DNA of 35,787 nucleotides. It comes from Saprospiraceae bacterium. GTDB taxonomy: Bacteria > Bacteroidota > Bacteroidia > Chitinophagales > Saprospiraceae. Shown here piece by piece: positions 1-31,936 of this stretch. The translations under genes and the position numbers were made by a program. The stretch is taken from assembly GCA_020848695.1 (NCBI GenBank), contig JADLHT010000061.1, positions 1 to 35,787 of the forward strand, read 5' to 3'. The notes under the pieces were generated by a model. The model worked only from the letters and a program-made list of their open reading frames with translations. It had not been told where the DNA came from and did no database searches. Position 1 is the stretch's first letter. Each line of letters opens with the position of its first letter.

Positions 1-50
1 ACATCTCATTAATTTTTATCTTTATGCCATCAGTTCTTTATAAAATTTAA

Positions 51-115
51 GGGTGGGTACCATTACGCTGGAAAGGTGGGTACCTTTACTCCGGAAAAAG
101 TGGGTACCTATGTCA
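51..115. repeat. IS21-like terminal multi-repeat (remnant or edge of an insertion sequence)
   Basis: The nonamer GTGGGTACC occurs three times, starting at 53, 76 and 100, so with a period of 23-24 bp. The spacers are similar to each other (CTGGAAAG and CTCCGGAAAAA types). Short tandem repeats of this GTGGGTACC/CCGGAA kind are characteristic of the ends of IS21-family elements in Bacteroidota. The transposase genes (istA/istB) are not visible, so the element would lie to the left of the window or be lost. The outer boundary is probably near TGTCA at 111-115. Family assignment is from recalled pattern, not from a search. Confidence 0.5.
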
Positions 116-116
116 G

Positions 117-215
117 GATTTTGCAATAAGATTATTTCGTAAGCTCATTGATCGTTTGGATATAAAAGGTATCATCTTGTCTGAAATAAAAAAGTATTCA
201 ATTACTACTCTTTAA
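117..215 (+). pseudogene. possible 3' tail of a gene cut by the IS-like end
   Basis: One frame is open from the inner edge of the IS-like repeats to a TAA at 213-215. It reads as a plausible protein C-terminus of about 32 residues (DFAIRLFRKLIDRLDIKG, then a Ser/Ile/Lys-rich end). It has no start codon of its own because the reading frame runs back into the GTGGGTACC repeats. It could be the end of a gene disrupted by the insertion, but 99 bp of open frame in AT-rich DNA can also arise by chance. The 227-bp repeat begins 6 bp after this stop. Confidence 0.25.
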
Positions 216-221
216 TGCAAG

Positions 222-448
222 TTTTTCAATTGACTTTCTATTGCGTGCTAATAAGTATTCAAATACTGGCATTTTCTAATTCCGCTTTCGCGTTTCCTTC
301 ACTTGTCGTGCTGTAGCAAGCAATTCCGATTTGCGGAAATCGTTCAGTCATCCTAAAAAAAATAATGACAATATCGGCAGTAAAAATATTCTGTGAACAC
401 TTGACTTTAATGGAATTTTGGCTCTCATGACGGTTCTCAACTGAAAAA
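222..448. repeat. 227-bp dispersed element with terminal inverted repeats, copy 1 (MITE-like)
   Basis: The left end (TTTTTCAATTGACTTTC, 222-238) is an inverted match to the right end (TCAACTGAAAAA, 437-448). The whole unit aligns without a single gap to 31026-31252, with about 169 of 227 identities counted by eye. The best conserved blocks are GTATTCAAATACTGGCA at 255, GCAAGC at 316, TTCAGTCATCCT at 343 and TAAAAATATTC at 381. It encodes no long frame. I infer a non-autonomous mobile element or a structured intergenic element. No target-site duplication is evident. Confidence 0.7.
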
Positions 449-590
449 TTTGGATTTAAAAATATCGAGAACTAATAAAGGTATCTAATATCTGCTATAG
501 AAAATTAAACCGGTACAGCGAGAATATCAATAGGATGTTGATTCTGAAAATTTTGAAAATAGTGTTAGTGTAATTACAATAGTAAAAAGT
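449..590. other. non-coding gap right of the repeat
   Basis: AT-rich sequence between repeat copy 1 and the terminator. No reading frame, promoter box or further repeat that I can support is visible. Confidence 0.5.
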
Positions 591-4579: not shown

Positions 4580-4913
4580 TCATTGTAAGTAATACAATCA
4601 ATTCAATAATACAGAATTCTACAATCACATTTTTTCATAAGTCATAAGATTATACTTAAAAGGAGGGATTGCTATGATAAATATTTCAAACCGATTATTG
4701 AAATTACTATCATTATATTTCTAAACATTTTAAGGTTGAGAAATTCGAAATAATGTAAAGTTAAGTCTTCAAAAGTGATAAGTGAAAGTAGCTAGTTTAT
4801 AAGTACAAAAATTGCGATTTCAGCAATAGGAAGAAAAAGTGGTGTAAGTCTTATTATTCAATAGCTACTATTATTATCCATAATTCTCATTGAGTTGAAA
4901 TCAAATTGAATTT
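4580..4913. other. intergenic region upstream of uvrC
   Basis: About 330 bp with no supported gene. A weak inverted repeat (ATTGTA / TACAAT) near 4583-4600 lacks a U tract. AT-rich DNA runs to the uvrC promoter box at 4914. I see no RNA gene here. Confidence 0.5.
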
Positions 4914-6918: not shown

Positions 6919-9054
6919 ATGGGAATTATTACGAGCATTAGAAAACGCCTTTGGGTAGTCACTATTTTGATGGCTCTGGCTTTATTGGGCTTCATCGTTA
7001 TGGATATGACCTCTGGCAAATCGTCTTGGCTCTTTGGCGGCAGTGATAGAGAAAACGTTGCTTCAGTAGCCGGAAAAGATATTAGCTGGAAGGAATTTCA
7101 ACAGACTGAGAATGTTCTTTATCGAAATGCTACGGATGTAGATGTATTTGGAAGGAAAGAATATGTGTGGAATCAAATGGTTGAGAAAGCTATTCTTGAG
7201 AAAGAAGCATCTATTAATGGTCTGATGGTTACGGACGCTGAATTGAAGGAATTACAATTCGGAAATGAATTATCGCCTATTGTTCAAAGGAATTTCAGAG
7301 ATCCAAACACAGGACAAATTGCAAGAGACCAGCTGAATCAGTTTCAGACCGGGCTTGACAATAATTCATTGCCACAAGAAGCGGTTGATTTTTGGAAGAT
7401 ACAAACCAAAGAAATAATCAAAGACCGATTAGAATCTAAAGTTGATGGATTGGTTAAAGGGGCACTTTTTATGCCAAATTTTATGGTTGAAAGACATTTT
7501 CAGGAAAGTAATGAAAAGTTGGATTTTTTATTTTCGAGGATAGCCTATAATCTGGTCAAAGATGAAGAGGTTGGTCCAATTACCAGTGAAGAGATCATAA
7601 CATTTATGAATAAGAAGAAACCACTTTTTGAAAATAAGGAGGAAACAAGGGATTTAGAATATTGCATGATTGCAGTTAATCCTACTTTGGATGATTCAAT
7701 TCGAATTCAAAATGAAATTGCGTCTAAGATTGAAGGCTTTAAGAATTCGACCAAAGATTCCTTATACATAGTAGCTAATTTTGGAAAATTTGATGAAACC
7801 TATTTTAAATACAAAGAAGCTCCTGAAGCAATAAGGGATACATTAATAAATTTTAAACCGGGAGATATTCTAGGACCATACATTAATAATGGGGAGTACT
7901 GTATCACTAAAATTCTTGGAAAGAAGATTCTTCCCGATTCAGTTCGATCCAGACATATCCTTAGAAGAGTTGAGACCAGGGATCAATATCTTGCTGCCAA
8001 TAGATTATTGGACAGTATCAAAACCGTAATTGAAACCGGTAAAGGAAGATTTGATTCTTTAGCAGTACAATTTAGTCAGGATCCCGGATCCGGCATTAAA
8101 GGGGGAGATCTTGGATTTGCTTCCCAGGGTATGATGGTCAAAGAATTCAATAACAAATTGTTTTTTACCGGTGAAAAAGGTAAATTATACATCGTTGCAA
8201 CACAATTTGGATTACACCTGATTGAAATCCTGGAAGAAAGATATTATACCAAAGAAACAGCAATGCAATTGGGAACTATATCGGAAACGATCCAACCCGG
8301 CGATAGTATTTTAAATGTGAAGCTTGACGAAGCTCAAAGACTAATTGAATCGAATTCAACTTTAGAAGGATTAAACAAGGCCATCAGTGAAGGAAAAACT
8401 TATGTAATGGATTATGCGGGGAATTTAATCTCAACGACCTACAAAATTGATAAAATTGGAGAAGCCGCAAACAATACCACAAGAGACATGGTCAGATGGG
8501 CATTCAATCCTAATACCGAAGTTGGAAGTACCTCACCAGAAGTATATACTACTCAGGATCCTGTAAAGAAATTTACAAACAGATACATAATCTGTGGACT
8601 TGCTGCAATCAACCCAAAAGGGCTTCCCAATCCTATGGCTGTTAAAGACCGTGTAAAAGATGCAATAATGAATGAAAAGAAGTTTAAGTTTATAAAAGAT
8701 AAGTTAGGATCGGTGACAGCCTTAAGTTCAACTTACGGTGAATTCATATCTAAAGTTGATACAGCTACCGAAGCAACGACCAATGGTCAACAGGTTCCTT
8801 TGTATGGTTATGAACCGGATATCTGTACGTATGCATCTAAATTAAATCCTGGACAGGTTGGCGGCCCTTACCAAGGAGAAAGTGGCGCATATATCATTCA
8901 ACTCACGAGCAAGAAGGATCCCGGAGTTGCTTCTAATCTTGAAACATTCAAAAGATTCTATAAGCATCCTGCCATGAATACCATTTCCAAATATCTTATG
9001 GCATCATTAAAGAACAGTTATAAACTAAAAGACAACCGGAGTAATTTCTTTTAA
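6919..9054 (+). CDS. ppiD: PpiD-type membrane-anchored peptidyl-prolyl isomerase / SurA-like chaperone
   Basis: The 711-residue product assists folding of secreted and outer-membrane proteins on the periplasmic side of the inner membrane. One N-terminal anchor helix (about 11-28) is preceded by basic residues (SIRKR), the PpiD pattern. A SurA-like helical chaperone region follows (about 45-200). A parvulin (PpiC) domain sits at about 342-440, with SRHILRR (344-350), 'FSQDPGSGIKGGDLGF' (385-400) and 'FGLHLIEILE' (430-439). A second, degenerate parvulin-like half may occupy 560-680. Length and layout match Bacteroidota PpiD. It has its own promoter box at 6830 and a strong terminator at 9074, so it appears monocistronic. 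Confidence 0.9.
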   Translation: MGIITSIRKRLWVVTILMALALLGFIVMDMTSGKSSWLFGGSDRENVASVAGKDISWKEFQQTENVLYRNATDVDVFGRKEYVWNQMVEKAILEKEASINGLMVTDAELKELQFGNELSPIVQRNFRDPNTGQIARDQLNQFQTGLDNNSLPQEAVDFWKIQTKEIIKDRLESKVDGLVKGALFMPNFMVERHFQESNEKLDFLFSRIAYNLVKDEEVGPITSEEIITFMNKKKPLFENKEETRDLEYCMIAVNPTLDDSIRIQNEIASKIEGFKNSTKDSLYIVANFGKFDETYFKYKEAPEAIRDTLINFKPGDILGPYINNGEYCITKILGKKILPDSVRSRHILRRVETRDQYLAANRLLDSIKTVIETGKGRFDSLAVQFSQDPGSGIKGGDLGFASQGMMVKEFNNKLFFTGEKGKLYIVATQFGLHLIEILEERYYTKETAMQLGTISETIQPGDSILNVKLDEAQRLIESNSTLEGLNKAISEGKTYVMDYAGNLISTTYKIDKIGEAANNTTRDMVRWAFNPNTEVGSTSPEVYTTQDPVKKFTNRYIICGLAAINPKGLPNPMAVKDRVKDAIMNEKKFKFIKDKLGSVTALSSTYGEFISKVDTATEATTNGQQVPLYGYEPDICTYASKLNPGQVGGPYQGESGAYIIQLTSKKDPGVASNLETFKRFYKHPAMNTISKYLMASLKNSYKLKDNRSNFF

Positions 9055-30154: not shown

Positions 30155-31018
30155 ATGTTTCGACCTGTTGAAAAAATTCTGAATCCACCTTCATTTCACA
30201 TGGTAGGAGACGGTTTCAGAGTGCACAATTTCATTCCTGGAGCTGTTACTATGGAGAGAATGAATCCAATTATAATGATGGATTACAATTCTAAGTATTA
30301 CTTTTCACCAACTGATCAACCAAGAGGTGTTGATGTACATCCACACAGAGGATTCGAAACTATTACGATTGCGTACAAAGGAAGAATTGCACATCATGAC
30401 AGCAAAGGCAACTCAGGGATTATCGGTGAAGGTGAAGTTCAATGGATGACAGCAGCATCGGGAATTCTTCATAAAGAGTATCACGAAAGAGAATTTAGTA
30501 AACAAGGAGGGGAATTTCATATGGTTCAACTTTGGCTGAATCTTCCTGCTAAATACAAAATGATTGAGCCAAAATATCAAAGTATAGATAAAGACAGTAT
30601 TGAAACAATTAAAATAAGTGAGCTTTCAAGGATCGAATTAATTGCCGGAAAATATAAAGCCCATCAGGGACCGGCAACAACTTTTACAAATGCTCATCTT
30701 TCAAATATCTATCTTAAGCAAAGTGAAGAATGTGAGTTTAATTTTAGATCAGATGATAATACTTGTATTCTGATTGTTGAAGGTTCAGTTGAATTAAACA
30801 ATGATTCTAAAATTTCTACAGATCAATTTGTCTTGTTCAAAAATCAGGAAGGGATGATCAAAATAAAAGCACTTGAGGATGCAGTTGTCCTGTTGATCAG
30901 TGTTGAACCTATTCATGAACCTATTGCTGCCTACGGACCTTTTGTGATGAATACTCAGGATGAGCTTCGAGAAGCATTCAGAGACTATCAGATGGGAAAA
31001 TTTGGAGAATTGAATTAA
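30155..31018 (+). CDS. pirin family protein
   Basis: The 287-residue cytoplasmic cupin protein has its metal ligands intact: H62 and H64 in 'VDVHPHRGFETI', H106 and E108 in 'ILHKEYHERE'. These match the Fe ligands of human pirin (H56, H58, H101, E103). Some pirins are quercetin 2,3-dioxygenases and others regulators; activity cannot be told here. The frame is open upstream to 30071, but that would overlap the preceding gene by 50 bp and add residues not seen in the family, so ATG at 30155 is chosen. It follows the large envelope gene by 34 bp, so it may be cotranscribed. The stop lies 7 bp from the 227-bp repeat. Confidence 0.9.
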   Translation: MFRPVEKILNPPSFHMVGDGFRVHNFIPGAVTMERMNPIIMMDYNSKYYFSPTDQPRGVDVHPHRGFETITIAYKGRIAHHDSKGNSGIIGEGEVQWMTAASGILHKEYHEREFSKQGGEFHMVQLWLNLPAKYKMIEPKYQSIDKDSIETIKISELSRIELIAGKYKAHQGPATTFTNAHLSNIYLKQSEECEFNFRSDDNTCILIVEGSVELNNDSKISTDQFVLFKNQEGMIKIKALEDAVVLLISVEPIHEPIAAYGPFVMNTQDELREAFRDYQMGKFGELN

Positions 31019-31025
31019 ACCTAAA

Positions 31026-31252
31026 TTTTTCAGTTGACTTTCATTTACGAATTAAAATGTATTCAAATACTGGCACTTTCTTATGCCGATTTTGCGGTAC
31101 TTTAAATTGTCTTGTTGTCGCAAGCCATTCCTTTTTGCGCTAATCATTCAGTCATCCTCAACGAAAAGATGAATATGTTTGTGGTAAAAATATTCCGTAA
31201 GCAAATCAATTCATAGGACTTTTGACCCTCATTCCGAAACTCAACTGAAAAA
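31026..31252. repeat. 227-bp dispersed element with terminal inverted repeats, copy 2 (MITE-like)
   Basis: The left end TTTTTCAGTTGACTTTC (31026-31042) is mirrored by the right end TCAACTGAAAAA (31241-31252). The whole unit is exactly as long as copy 1 at 222-448 and aligns to it without gaps at about 74% identity, hand counted. It starts 7 bp after the pirin stop and ends 6 bp before the stop of the convergent deacetylase, so it fills the intergenic gap. The paired ends would let the transcript fold back. Transposon or structured 3' element are both open. Confidence 0.75.
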
Positions 31253-31258
31253 ATAAGG

Positions 31259-31936
31259 TTAAAGCGTACCTTTAATATTCACAGATAAGGAAGCAGATTT
31301 TTGATTTAGCTCTTCCGAATGTATTGAGTCCAAGTTTTTAAAAACAAAACCCTTTGATGAATAATATTCCAGAATTCGTGGAAGGGTGTATTTTAAATTT
31401 TTCCACGCTTTGATACTGTCATGAAAAACAATAATTGAACCTTCTCGAGTATTTCTTAAGACATTTTCGTAACAATCTCTCGGGTCTATGAAGGGATCAA
31501 AGTCACCACTCAATACATCCCACATAATAATTTTGTATTTGTTTTTTAATGCTCTAAATTTAAATGGGGTGAGACGACCATATGGCGGTCTAAAAAAGGA
31601 GCTTTGAATATATCGGTCAGCAAGGTTAACATTTTTTACATATTGCCTTGTCAGAGTCCCCCAACCCGACAAATGGTTATAGGTATGATTTCCTATAGTA
31701 TGTGAGCGACTGATAATTTGCTGAAATATTTCGGGATTTTTTTGAACATTTTCACCTACACAGAAGAAGCTTGCTTTTGCATTATACGCATCAAGTTGAT
31801 CCAATACCCAAGGAGTTACCTCAGGAATAGGTCCGTCATCAAAAGTTAAAAAGATGGATTTGTCACAATCTTCAACTCTCCAGATCAACTGTGGCATAAG
31901 TTCCTGTACAAATCGAGGAGTAAAACTGAAGAACAT
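31259..31936 (-). CDS. polysaccharide deacetylase (NodB domain, carbohydrate esterase 4)
   Basis: This 225-residue metal-dependent hydrolase removes acetyl groups from N-acetylated glycans such as peptidoglycan or chitin. The NodB motifs are complete: TFDDGP (31-36, catalytic base and metal Asp), HTIGNHTYNH (79-88, metal H84/H88), RPPYGR (116-121), 'WDVLSGDFD' (139-147) and 'VFHDS' with the last catalytic His. No signal peptide is evident: the first 20 residues (MFFSFTPRFVQELMPQLIWR) are only mildly hydrophobic, so location is uncertain. The last ~25 residues extend past the domain. Its stop lies 6 bp from the 227-bp element, opposite pirin. It is divergent from gltX. Confidence 0.92.
   Translation of the reverse strand: MFFSFTPRFVQELMPQLIWRVEDCDKSIFLTFDDGPIPEVTPWVLDQLDAYNAKASFFCVGENVQKNPEIFQQIISRSHTIGNHTYNHLSGWGTLTRQYVKNVNLADRYIQSSFFRPPYGRLTPFKFRALKNKYKIIMWDVLSGDFDPFIDPRDCYENVLRNTREGSIIVFHDSIKAWKNLKYTLPRILEYYSSKGFVFKNLDSIHSEELNQKSASLSVNIKGTL

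Follow-up and report, generated by a model that had tools for sequence, protein, structure and literature searches.

A probable IS1380-derived MITE of a Saprospiraceae genome carries a three-hairpin repeat whose structure is conserved elsewhere in the family

The two similar sequences that stand about 31 kb apart in the window (the whole stretch of 35,787 nucleotides analysed here, on contig C61 of a 3.18 Mb genome in 66 contigs, G000) are best explained jointly as copies of an IS1380-derived MITE that serves as carrier of a separate, family-wide three-hairpin repeat and is now decaying neutrally, a reading to which we assign a probability of roughly 0.87. The MITE itself is ordinary, and it is the structured module within it that merits follow-up.

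The initial annotation described a pair of equal length, 222-448 and 31026-31252, that aligns without an indel at about 74% identity, and the count bears this out: 169 of 227 positions agree (74.4%), as against a mean of 61.7 (sd 6.9) over all offsets on both strands of the window and only 94 for the second-best placement. The inverted ends and the blocks common to both copies are also as described. The pair is thus real, but the element is longer than was proposed, since with its target duplications it occupies 211-459 and 31015-31263, over which 181 of 249 positions are identical. Copy 1, a long form on the plus strand (211..459, including both 5-bp duplications TTTAA/TTTAA), has its terminal inverted repeats at 216..233 and 437..454 and encloses a three-hairpin module at 281..353. 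Copy 2, also a long form on the plus strand (31015..31263, duplications TTAAA/TTAAA), has its terminal inverted repeats at 31020..31037 and 31241..31258 and its module at 31085..31157. The two modules, both on the plus strand, score 64.7 and 48.7 bits, respectively, with model R1, which incorporates the consensus of the own-genome module copies. To the left of copy 2 lies a pirin gene (30161..31018, plus strand) whose stop codon (31016-31018) falls within the left duplication, and to its right a polysaccharide deacetylase gene (31259..31936, minus strand) whose stop codon falls within the right one. At the start of the contig, window positions 50-120 hold three near-repeats of GGTGGGTACC that resemble an insertion sequence end, which we presume to be IS21-like.

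Both copies belong to a family with some 20 members in G000, where only two had been reported, as judged by BLAST of both copies, an iterated nhmmer profile built on 14 fetched loci, a consensus search and a short-copy search that used a G002 copy; further copies lie in related genomes. The family is dispersed, multi-copy, without a transposase gene and shorter than 500 bp, the length given for MITEs in the part of PMC10969869 available to us. Its members in G000 fall into 11 long copies (9 full and 2 truncated), six short copies of ~180 bp that lack the centre (C6, two on C10, C36, and C5 and C22, the last two known solely as matches of the short-copy search) and three minimal copies of 51-53 bp that comprise barely more than both ends (C19, C58 and C42), plus fragments. 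The copies on C43 and C36, 71% identical to each other, have ~50 bases of downstream flank in common. Pairwise, the nine full long copies are roughly equidistant at 63-73% identity, and each carries 37-52 substitutions relative to their own consensus, a divergence of 15-23%. The absence of indels noted at the outset holds for the window pair and not for the set, in which 399 substitutions are accompanied by 9 indel events; three of the nine copies have none, and since the mean over the set is one indel event per copy, the window pair represents its favourable extreme. Column conservation is over-dispersed (57 of 223 columns unchanged, where a binomial predicts 36), and divergence is lower in the module region than in the MITE arms (0.146 versus 0.19 over the nine full copies). 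The unequal columns and the less diverged module may leave room for weak constraint or for subfamilies.

Could the whole element of ~240 bp instead be a non-coding RNA or cis-regulatory element, conserved and held at constant length by selection? The indel-free pair, the preponderance of substitutions over indel events and the over-dispersed columns would all suit such an element, and the fold predicted for copy 2 surpasses that of most shuffles (z -2.3 and -2.6). However, on neither strand is the fold of copy 1 better than that of shuffles, the 11 own-genome modules show no covariation, shorter size classes and truncated copies exist, the single orthologous spacer examined is empty, and the window has no Rfam match at gathering score, all of which makes this reading very improbable. 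The earlier suggestion of selection on length or structure accordingly finds no support in the MITE copies of this genome, given their equal distances, the stems of the embedded module, which are no better paired than with shuffled partners, and the ~180 and 51 bp classes; for the last two reasons selection acting on the whole element is likewise unsupported.

The ends of the element provide evidence for insertion as a transposable unit. The terminal inverted repeats of ~18 bp, as in MITEs, read CCCARATTTTTCAGTTGA against TCAACTGAAAAATYTGGG (the end sequence is also written CCCARATTTTTCAG), and the insertion target is a 5 bp TTNAA that is duplicated outside both ends. Target duplications were assessed from the five bases beyond each end in 28 copies from G000, G001, G002 and G032, of which 27 were usable after the C6 copy of G000 was excluded by its end score. 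Exact direct duplications (TTTAA, TTAAA, TTGAA or TTCAA) flank 10 of these 27 copies and exact inverted ones flank none; shuffling the partners gives a mean of 4.6 exact matches (P = 0.004), in a test in which two near-identical G001:C25 copies are not independent. Summed positionwise agreement of the left and right pentamers is borderline (P = 0.058). The end-finder misplaced the C6 copy and that on C99 of G032, which by eye have TTTAA/TTTAA and were left uncounted. Both window copies have an exact duplication, which is absent in seven of the nine full long own-genome copies. The two G001 copies, at G001:C25 2045-2220 and 7360-7535, are short relatives of the MITE, each of which interrupts a gene presumably of lipocalin type; the stretches around them are nearly identical and separated by 5.3 kb.

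An empty site was found at one locus by means of the pirin gene beside copy 2. Eight of the nine genus genomes, own included, encode the pirin protein, and among the fetched pirin loci the deacetylase gene and gltX adjoin it solely in G002, a member of the same genus. There the three genes keep the same order, pirin ends with the same two residues, and the spacer shows no relation to the MITE where the two genes converge. These observations bear on a further reading, in which an intergenic sequence spread by segmental duplication or gene conversion without transposition. The flank stretch shared downstream of the C43 and C36 copies and the near-identical surroundings of the two G001:C25 copies would agree with it, but the remaining flanks that were compared look unrelated by eye, the target duplications vary between copies and the copies are spread over many contigs; we consider duplication alone extremely unlikely.

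Which transposase would have moved such an element? Two end patterns were run over the nine genus genomes, with a reversed control that gave four hits; once known MITE copies were set aside, 16 hits with no more than one mismatch were left. When these 16 loci and the minimal copy C42 were scanned for a partner end, one partner was found at transposon distance, delimiting a 1443 bp element at G002:C132 1854-3296 in which MITE-like ends surround a transposase frame. Its ends, TTTAGCCCAAATTTTTCAGTTGG and, inverted, TTTATACTAAATTTTTCAGTTGA, differ from the MITE end by 2 and 3 mismatches in 23, respectively; 30 of 459,548 positions in 50 other fetched loci lie within six mismatches of the 23-base end, a rough background in that some of those loci themselves contain MITE ends. 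The 263-aa frame between these ends matches NF033539 (transpos_IS1380) with E 3.8e-33 and 114.7 bits, below the NCBIfam cut-off of 180 and over positions 3-247 of 419, and also matches PF13701 with E 2.7e-17. Because the frame stops early, this IS1380-like copy is regarded as broken, and none of the 16 end-like loci of the genus genomes holds an intact IS1380-like element. An additional inverted repeat, TTGAGTTTA / TAAACTCAA, is present at the ends of the G002 element and immediately outside them. For a transposase with the same inverted ends, the search thus yielded an IS1380-type frame between near-identical ends, in a broken copy and with those few mismatches. Since a broken IS1380 element with nearly the same ends is present in a relative, the MITE is, judged from sequence, most likely a derivative of the IS1380 family. 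IS1380 members make target duplications of 4-5 bp and have ends starting with CC. The portions of PMC4133298 and PMC9330008 available to us give no duplication length for the family. Taken with the many copies, the target duplications and the empty site, the broken transposase gene between matching ends upholds the original proposal of a dispersed family with inverted ends.

The module within the long copies is of a different nature. In other genomes, the counterpart of the segments at 281-353 and 31085-31157 stands outside any MITE. The module measures 73 nt in the long copies and about 67-83 nt over the family, and comprises three hairpins in fixed order with near-constant single-strand joints, TTCACT.. 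and ATCGTTCA.TCATCC. In alignment A3 (six copies and one consensus), 95.2% of the cells are paired, 12 of 19 pairs show change on both sides, none of them in hairpin 1, and covariation reaches 0.657 as compared with 0.182 (sd 0.040) after shuffling and at most 0.173 when the structure is slid. Two larger alignments overlap and, having been fitted to the structure, are biased in its favour; they give 93.1% paired, 19 of 19 pairs and covariation of 0.686 versus 0.165 (A4, 34 distinct copies) and 92.5% paired, 18 of 19 pairs and covariation of 0.609 versus 0.151 shuffled (A5, 46 distinct copies taken from 38 loci, with a single locus for each genome). Pair types in A5 are no more numerous than in shuffles, which reached the same number in 173 of 500 cases, and hairpin 1 lacks its outermost pair in 25 of 45. 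Within G000, by contrast, the covariation test proposed for the stems is negative: the 11 modules are 72.6% paired versus 72.1% when shuffled, with covariation of 0.144 versus 0.143. The secondary structure of the module is kept by selection across Saprospiraceae, outside the MITE, and pairing is decaying within the MITE copies of G000.

The strand on which this structure acts can be approached through wobble pairs. Across hairpins 2 and 3 of 70 distinct copies there are 25 A-C and 7 G-T oppositions (P = 0.002, with copies that are not independent and hairpins picked after the fact), and therefore minus-strand wobbles outnumber plus-strand wobbles. Hairpin 1 disagrees, with 5 of each type at its inner pairs and 27 G-T versus 1 A-C at its outermost pair. 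The minus strand may be the working strand of the module, hairpin 1 notwithstanding. No known RNA family was recognised: Rfam gives no match at gathering score in the window, and at seven module loci it gives five unrelated hits, all far under the gathering score.

The MITE and the module differ in their distribution. At E 0.001, the long MITE consensus matches 8 of 60 relatives (own included), although in G005 the match is confined to the module and in G013 and G021 it consists of weak pieces. The short-copy search, with at most six candidates scored per genome, matches at least 6 of 120 family genomes at 1e-5, own included and G013 among them. Short copies of the MITE without the module occur in G000, G001, G002, G003 and G032. 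Over the right half of the consensus, six G002 copies reach 88-93% identity and are therefore taken to be younger than the long copies of G000. Plasmids gave no match to the long form and phages none to the short form. The module stands alone in G002, G003, G005 and G007, the last of which has no MITE match. Model R1 matches 18 of 60 relatives at E 0.01, two of them outside the family and marginal (E 0.0066 and 0.0075), and model R2 matches 49 of 120 Saprospiraceae genomes, with at least 39 matches in the richest when at most 41 candidates were scored per genome. Among 395 genomes of the phylum, six of which are listed under the family, R2 matched four, all Saprospiraceae, and none of about 389 outside it, with scoring limited to 12 candidates in each genome and the stricter filters of large searches. 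A strict module pattern run over the genome contigs returned one record and is too strict for mapping distribution. Literature searches, for which most subscription papers lay beyond reach, showed, among the titles and abstract openings listed, no description of the three-hairpin module. Tandem modules with a period of ~67-73 bases are seen at G452:C17 1434-1567 and G031:C111 4429-4642. In G000, two nearly identical stand-alone modules lie at or near contig ends (C12:1-71 and C15:167272-167342) and may represent a single repeat at which the assembly broke.

Most of the modules examined lie outside open reading frames. Among 41 module copies (of 47 matches), 31 do not overlap an open frame, five lie wholly within a frame of 100 codons or more (probably spurious in some cases), and five overlap a frame end by 1-7 bp. 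Where non-overlapping genes stand on both sides (20 loci), these are by eye co-directional at 13, convergent at five and divergent at two. At G005:C101 8960-9028 the module lies in frame, and alignment of its gene to a paralogue from that contig shows a gap of 23 residues there, a position that MAFFT does not reproduce when three further pieces are added (five in total). The gene that bears this module matched Colicin_D alone (a colicin-D-like C-terminal domain); the Hint reading of it stems from its neighbours, PT-HINT being found in another gene. Four more overlaps fall in two gene families, two in G005 and two in TPR-CHAT genes of G003, the latter at G003:C36 2459-2533 and 5884-5958 in the same frame of two tandem genes. 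By eye all four share a minus-strand frame, and the one that was aligned shows no clean insertion. A solved-structure search with a TPR-CHAT protein gave, among the matches listed, matches to its TPR part only. In G007:C2 a module overlaps the 3' end of each of three tandem genes (2029-2097, 4813-4882 and 7605-7673) and is repeated with the gene; the one scanned has TPR repeats and a caspase domain.

How did the two elements come to travel together? In the favoured reading, the MITE would derive from, and would have been moved in trans by, an IS1380-family transposase; in an ancestor of G000 one MITE would have gained the 73-nt module in its middle; and the composite would then have been amplified, ceased moving and begun to decay neutrally. 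The module itself would be a separate REP-like repeat of Saprospiraceae whose structure is maintained by selection elsewhere. A single insertion followed by amplification is suggested because the 11 recognisable long copies of G000 align over identical junctions. The copy at G002:C91 differs in its junctions and, at the junction used in the own genome, retains the sequence of the short form, and for this reason it is read as a separate module insertion. The right junction of G002:C71, C118 and C25 is of the own-genome type, and these insertions may not be independent of it.

An alternative hypothesis is that the module is the primary mobile unit, moved as single-stranded hairpins by a RAYT/Y1-like enzyme of its own, and that the MITE arms are no more than a frequent landing site for it. 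The module does occur alone and in tandem in many genomes, and the MITE has received it at least twice, at different junctions (the own type and G002:C91), both insertions ending in ...CATCC. However, 11 of the 13 modules in G000 lie within MITE copies and align over the same junctions, and therefore it is the MITE that would have moved the module in that genome. Moreover, G000 has no match to Y1 (PF01797), and 14 of the 21 Y1 matches of the genus, examined over ~1.5 kb either side where the contig allowed, gave one weak module match nearby (15.3 bits, E 0.015). On these 14 of 21 matches a Y1/RAYT partner for the module was rejected, and we judge the hypothesis as a whole unlikely. Somewhat less doubtful, although still speculative, is the idea that the module is an undescribed Saprospiraceae-wide mobile element that acts as single-stranded nucleic acid, is moved by some enzyme, hitchhikes in MITEs and is at times retained in frame within proteins. 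Compensatory evolution between dispersed repeats offers a handle on whether selection acts on a transposition substrate or on an RNA function, and the branch that decays within the MITE constitutes an internal neutral control for a module that stays paired elsewhere in the family.

Under the favoured reading of an IS1380-derived carrier, the element is a case of a MITE carrying another repeat, and several known systems invite comparison. With the IS1380 family itself (NF033539, PF13701) the link is the remnant in the same genus, with its near-identical ends and IS1380-type frame; unlike IS1380 insertion sequences, the MITE has no transposase, and the known candidate for its parent is a broken copy. 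The BrickBuilt MITE of Porphyromonas gingivalis, as far as described in the part of PMC4596501 available to us, has IS5-like ends and a 23-nt minisatellite inside. Both elements have inverted ends and no transposase, are intergenic, show putative target duplications in some copies and enclose a second repeat, but BrickBuilt carries tandem-repeat cargo between IS5-like ends, whereas the present element has IS1380-like ends and a structured cargo that also occurs by itself. REP elements, in the accessible text of PMC3733652, bear GTAG or CGTC tags on a single hairpin of 20-40 bp, and the CGTC repeats have no associated transposase. Like them, the module is a short, palindromic, dispersed repeat that is mostly intergenic and sometimes within genes. 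Unlike them, it has three ordered hairpins over about 67-83 nt, by eye its ends (CCGC.. on one side and often ..TCATCC on the other) carry no GTAG or CGTC tag, and it lacks the RAYT association in the Y1 searches of G000 and of the genus given above. Finally, Rickettsia palindromic elements can sit in frame in protein genes, according to the portion of PMC10969869 available to us; the module may do likewise, although most of the copies examined lie outside open frames and the in-frame cases are few and belong to two gene families.
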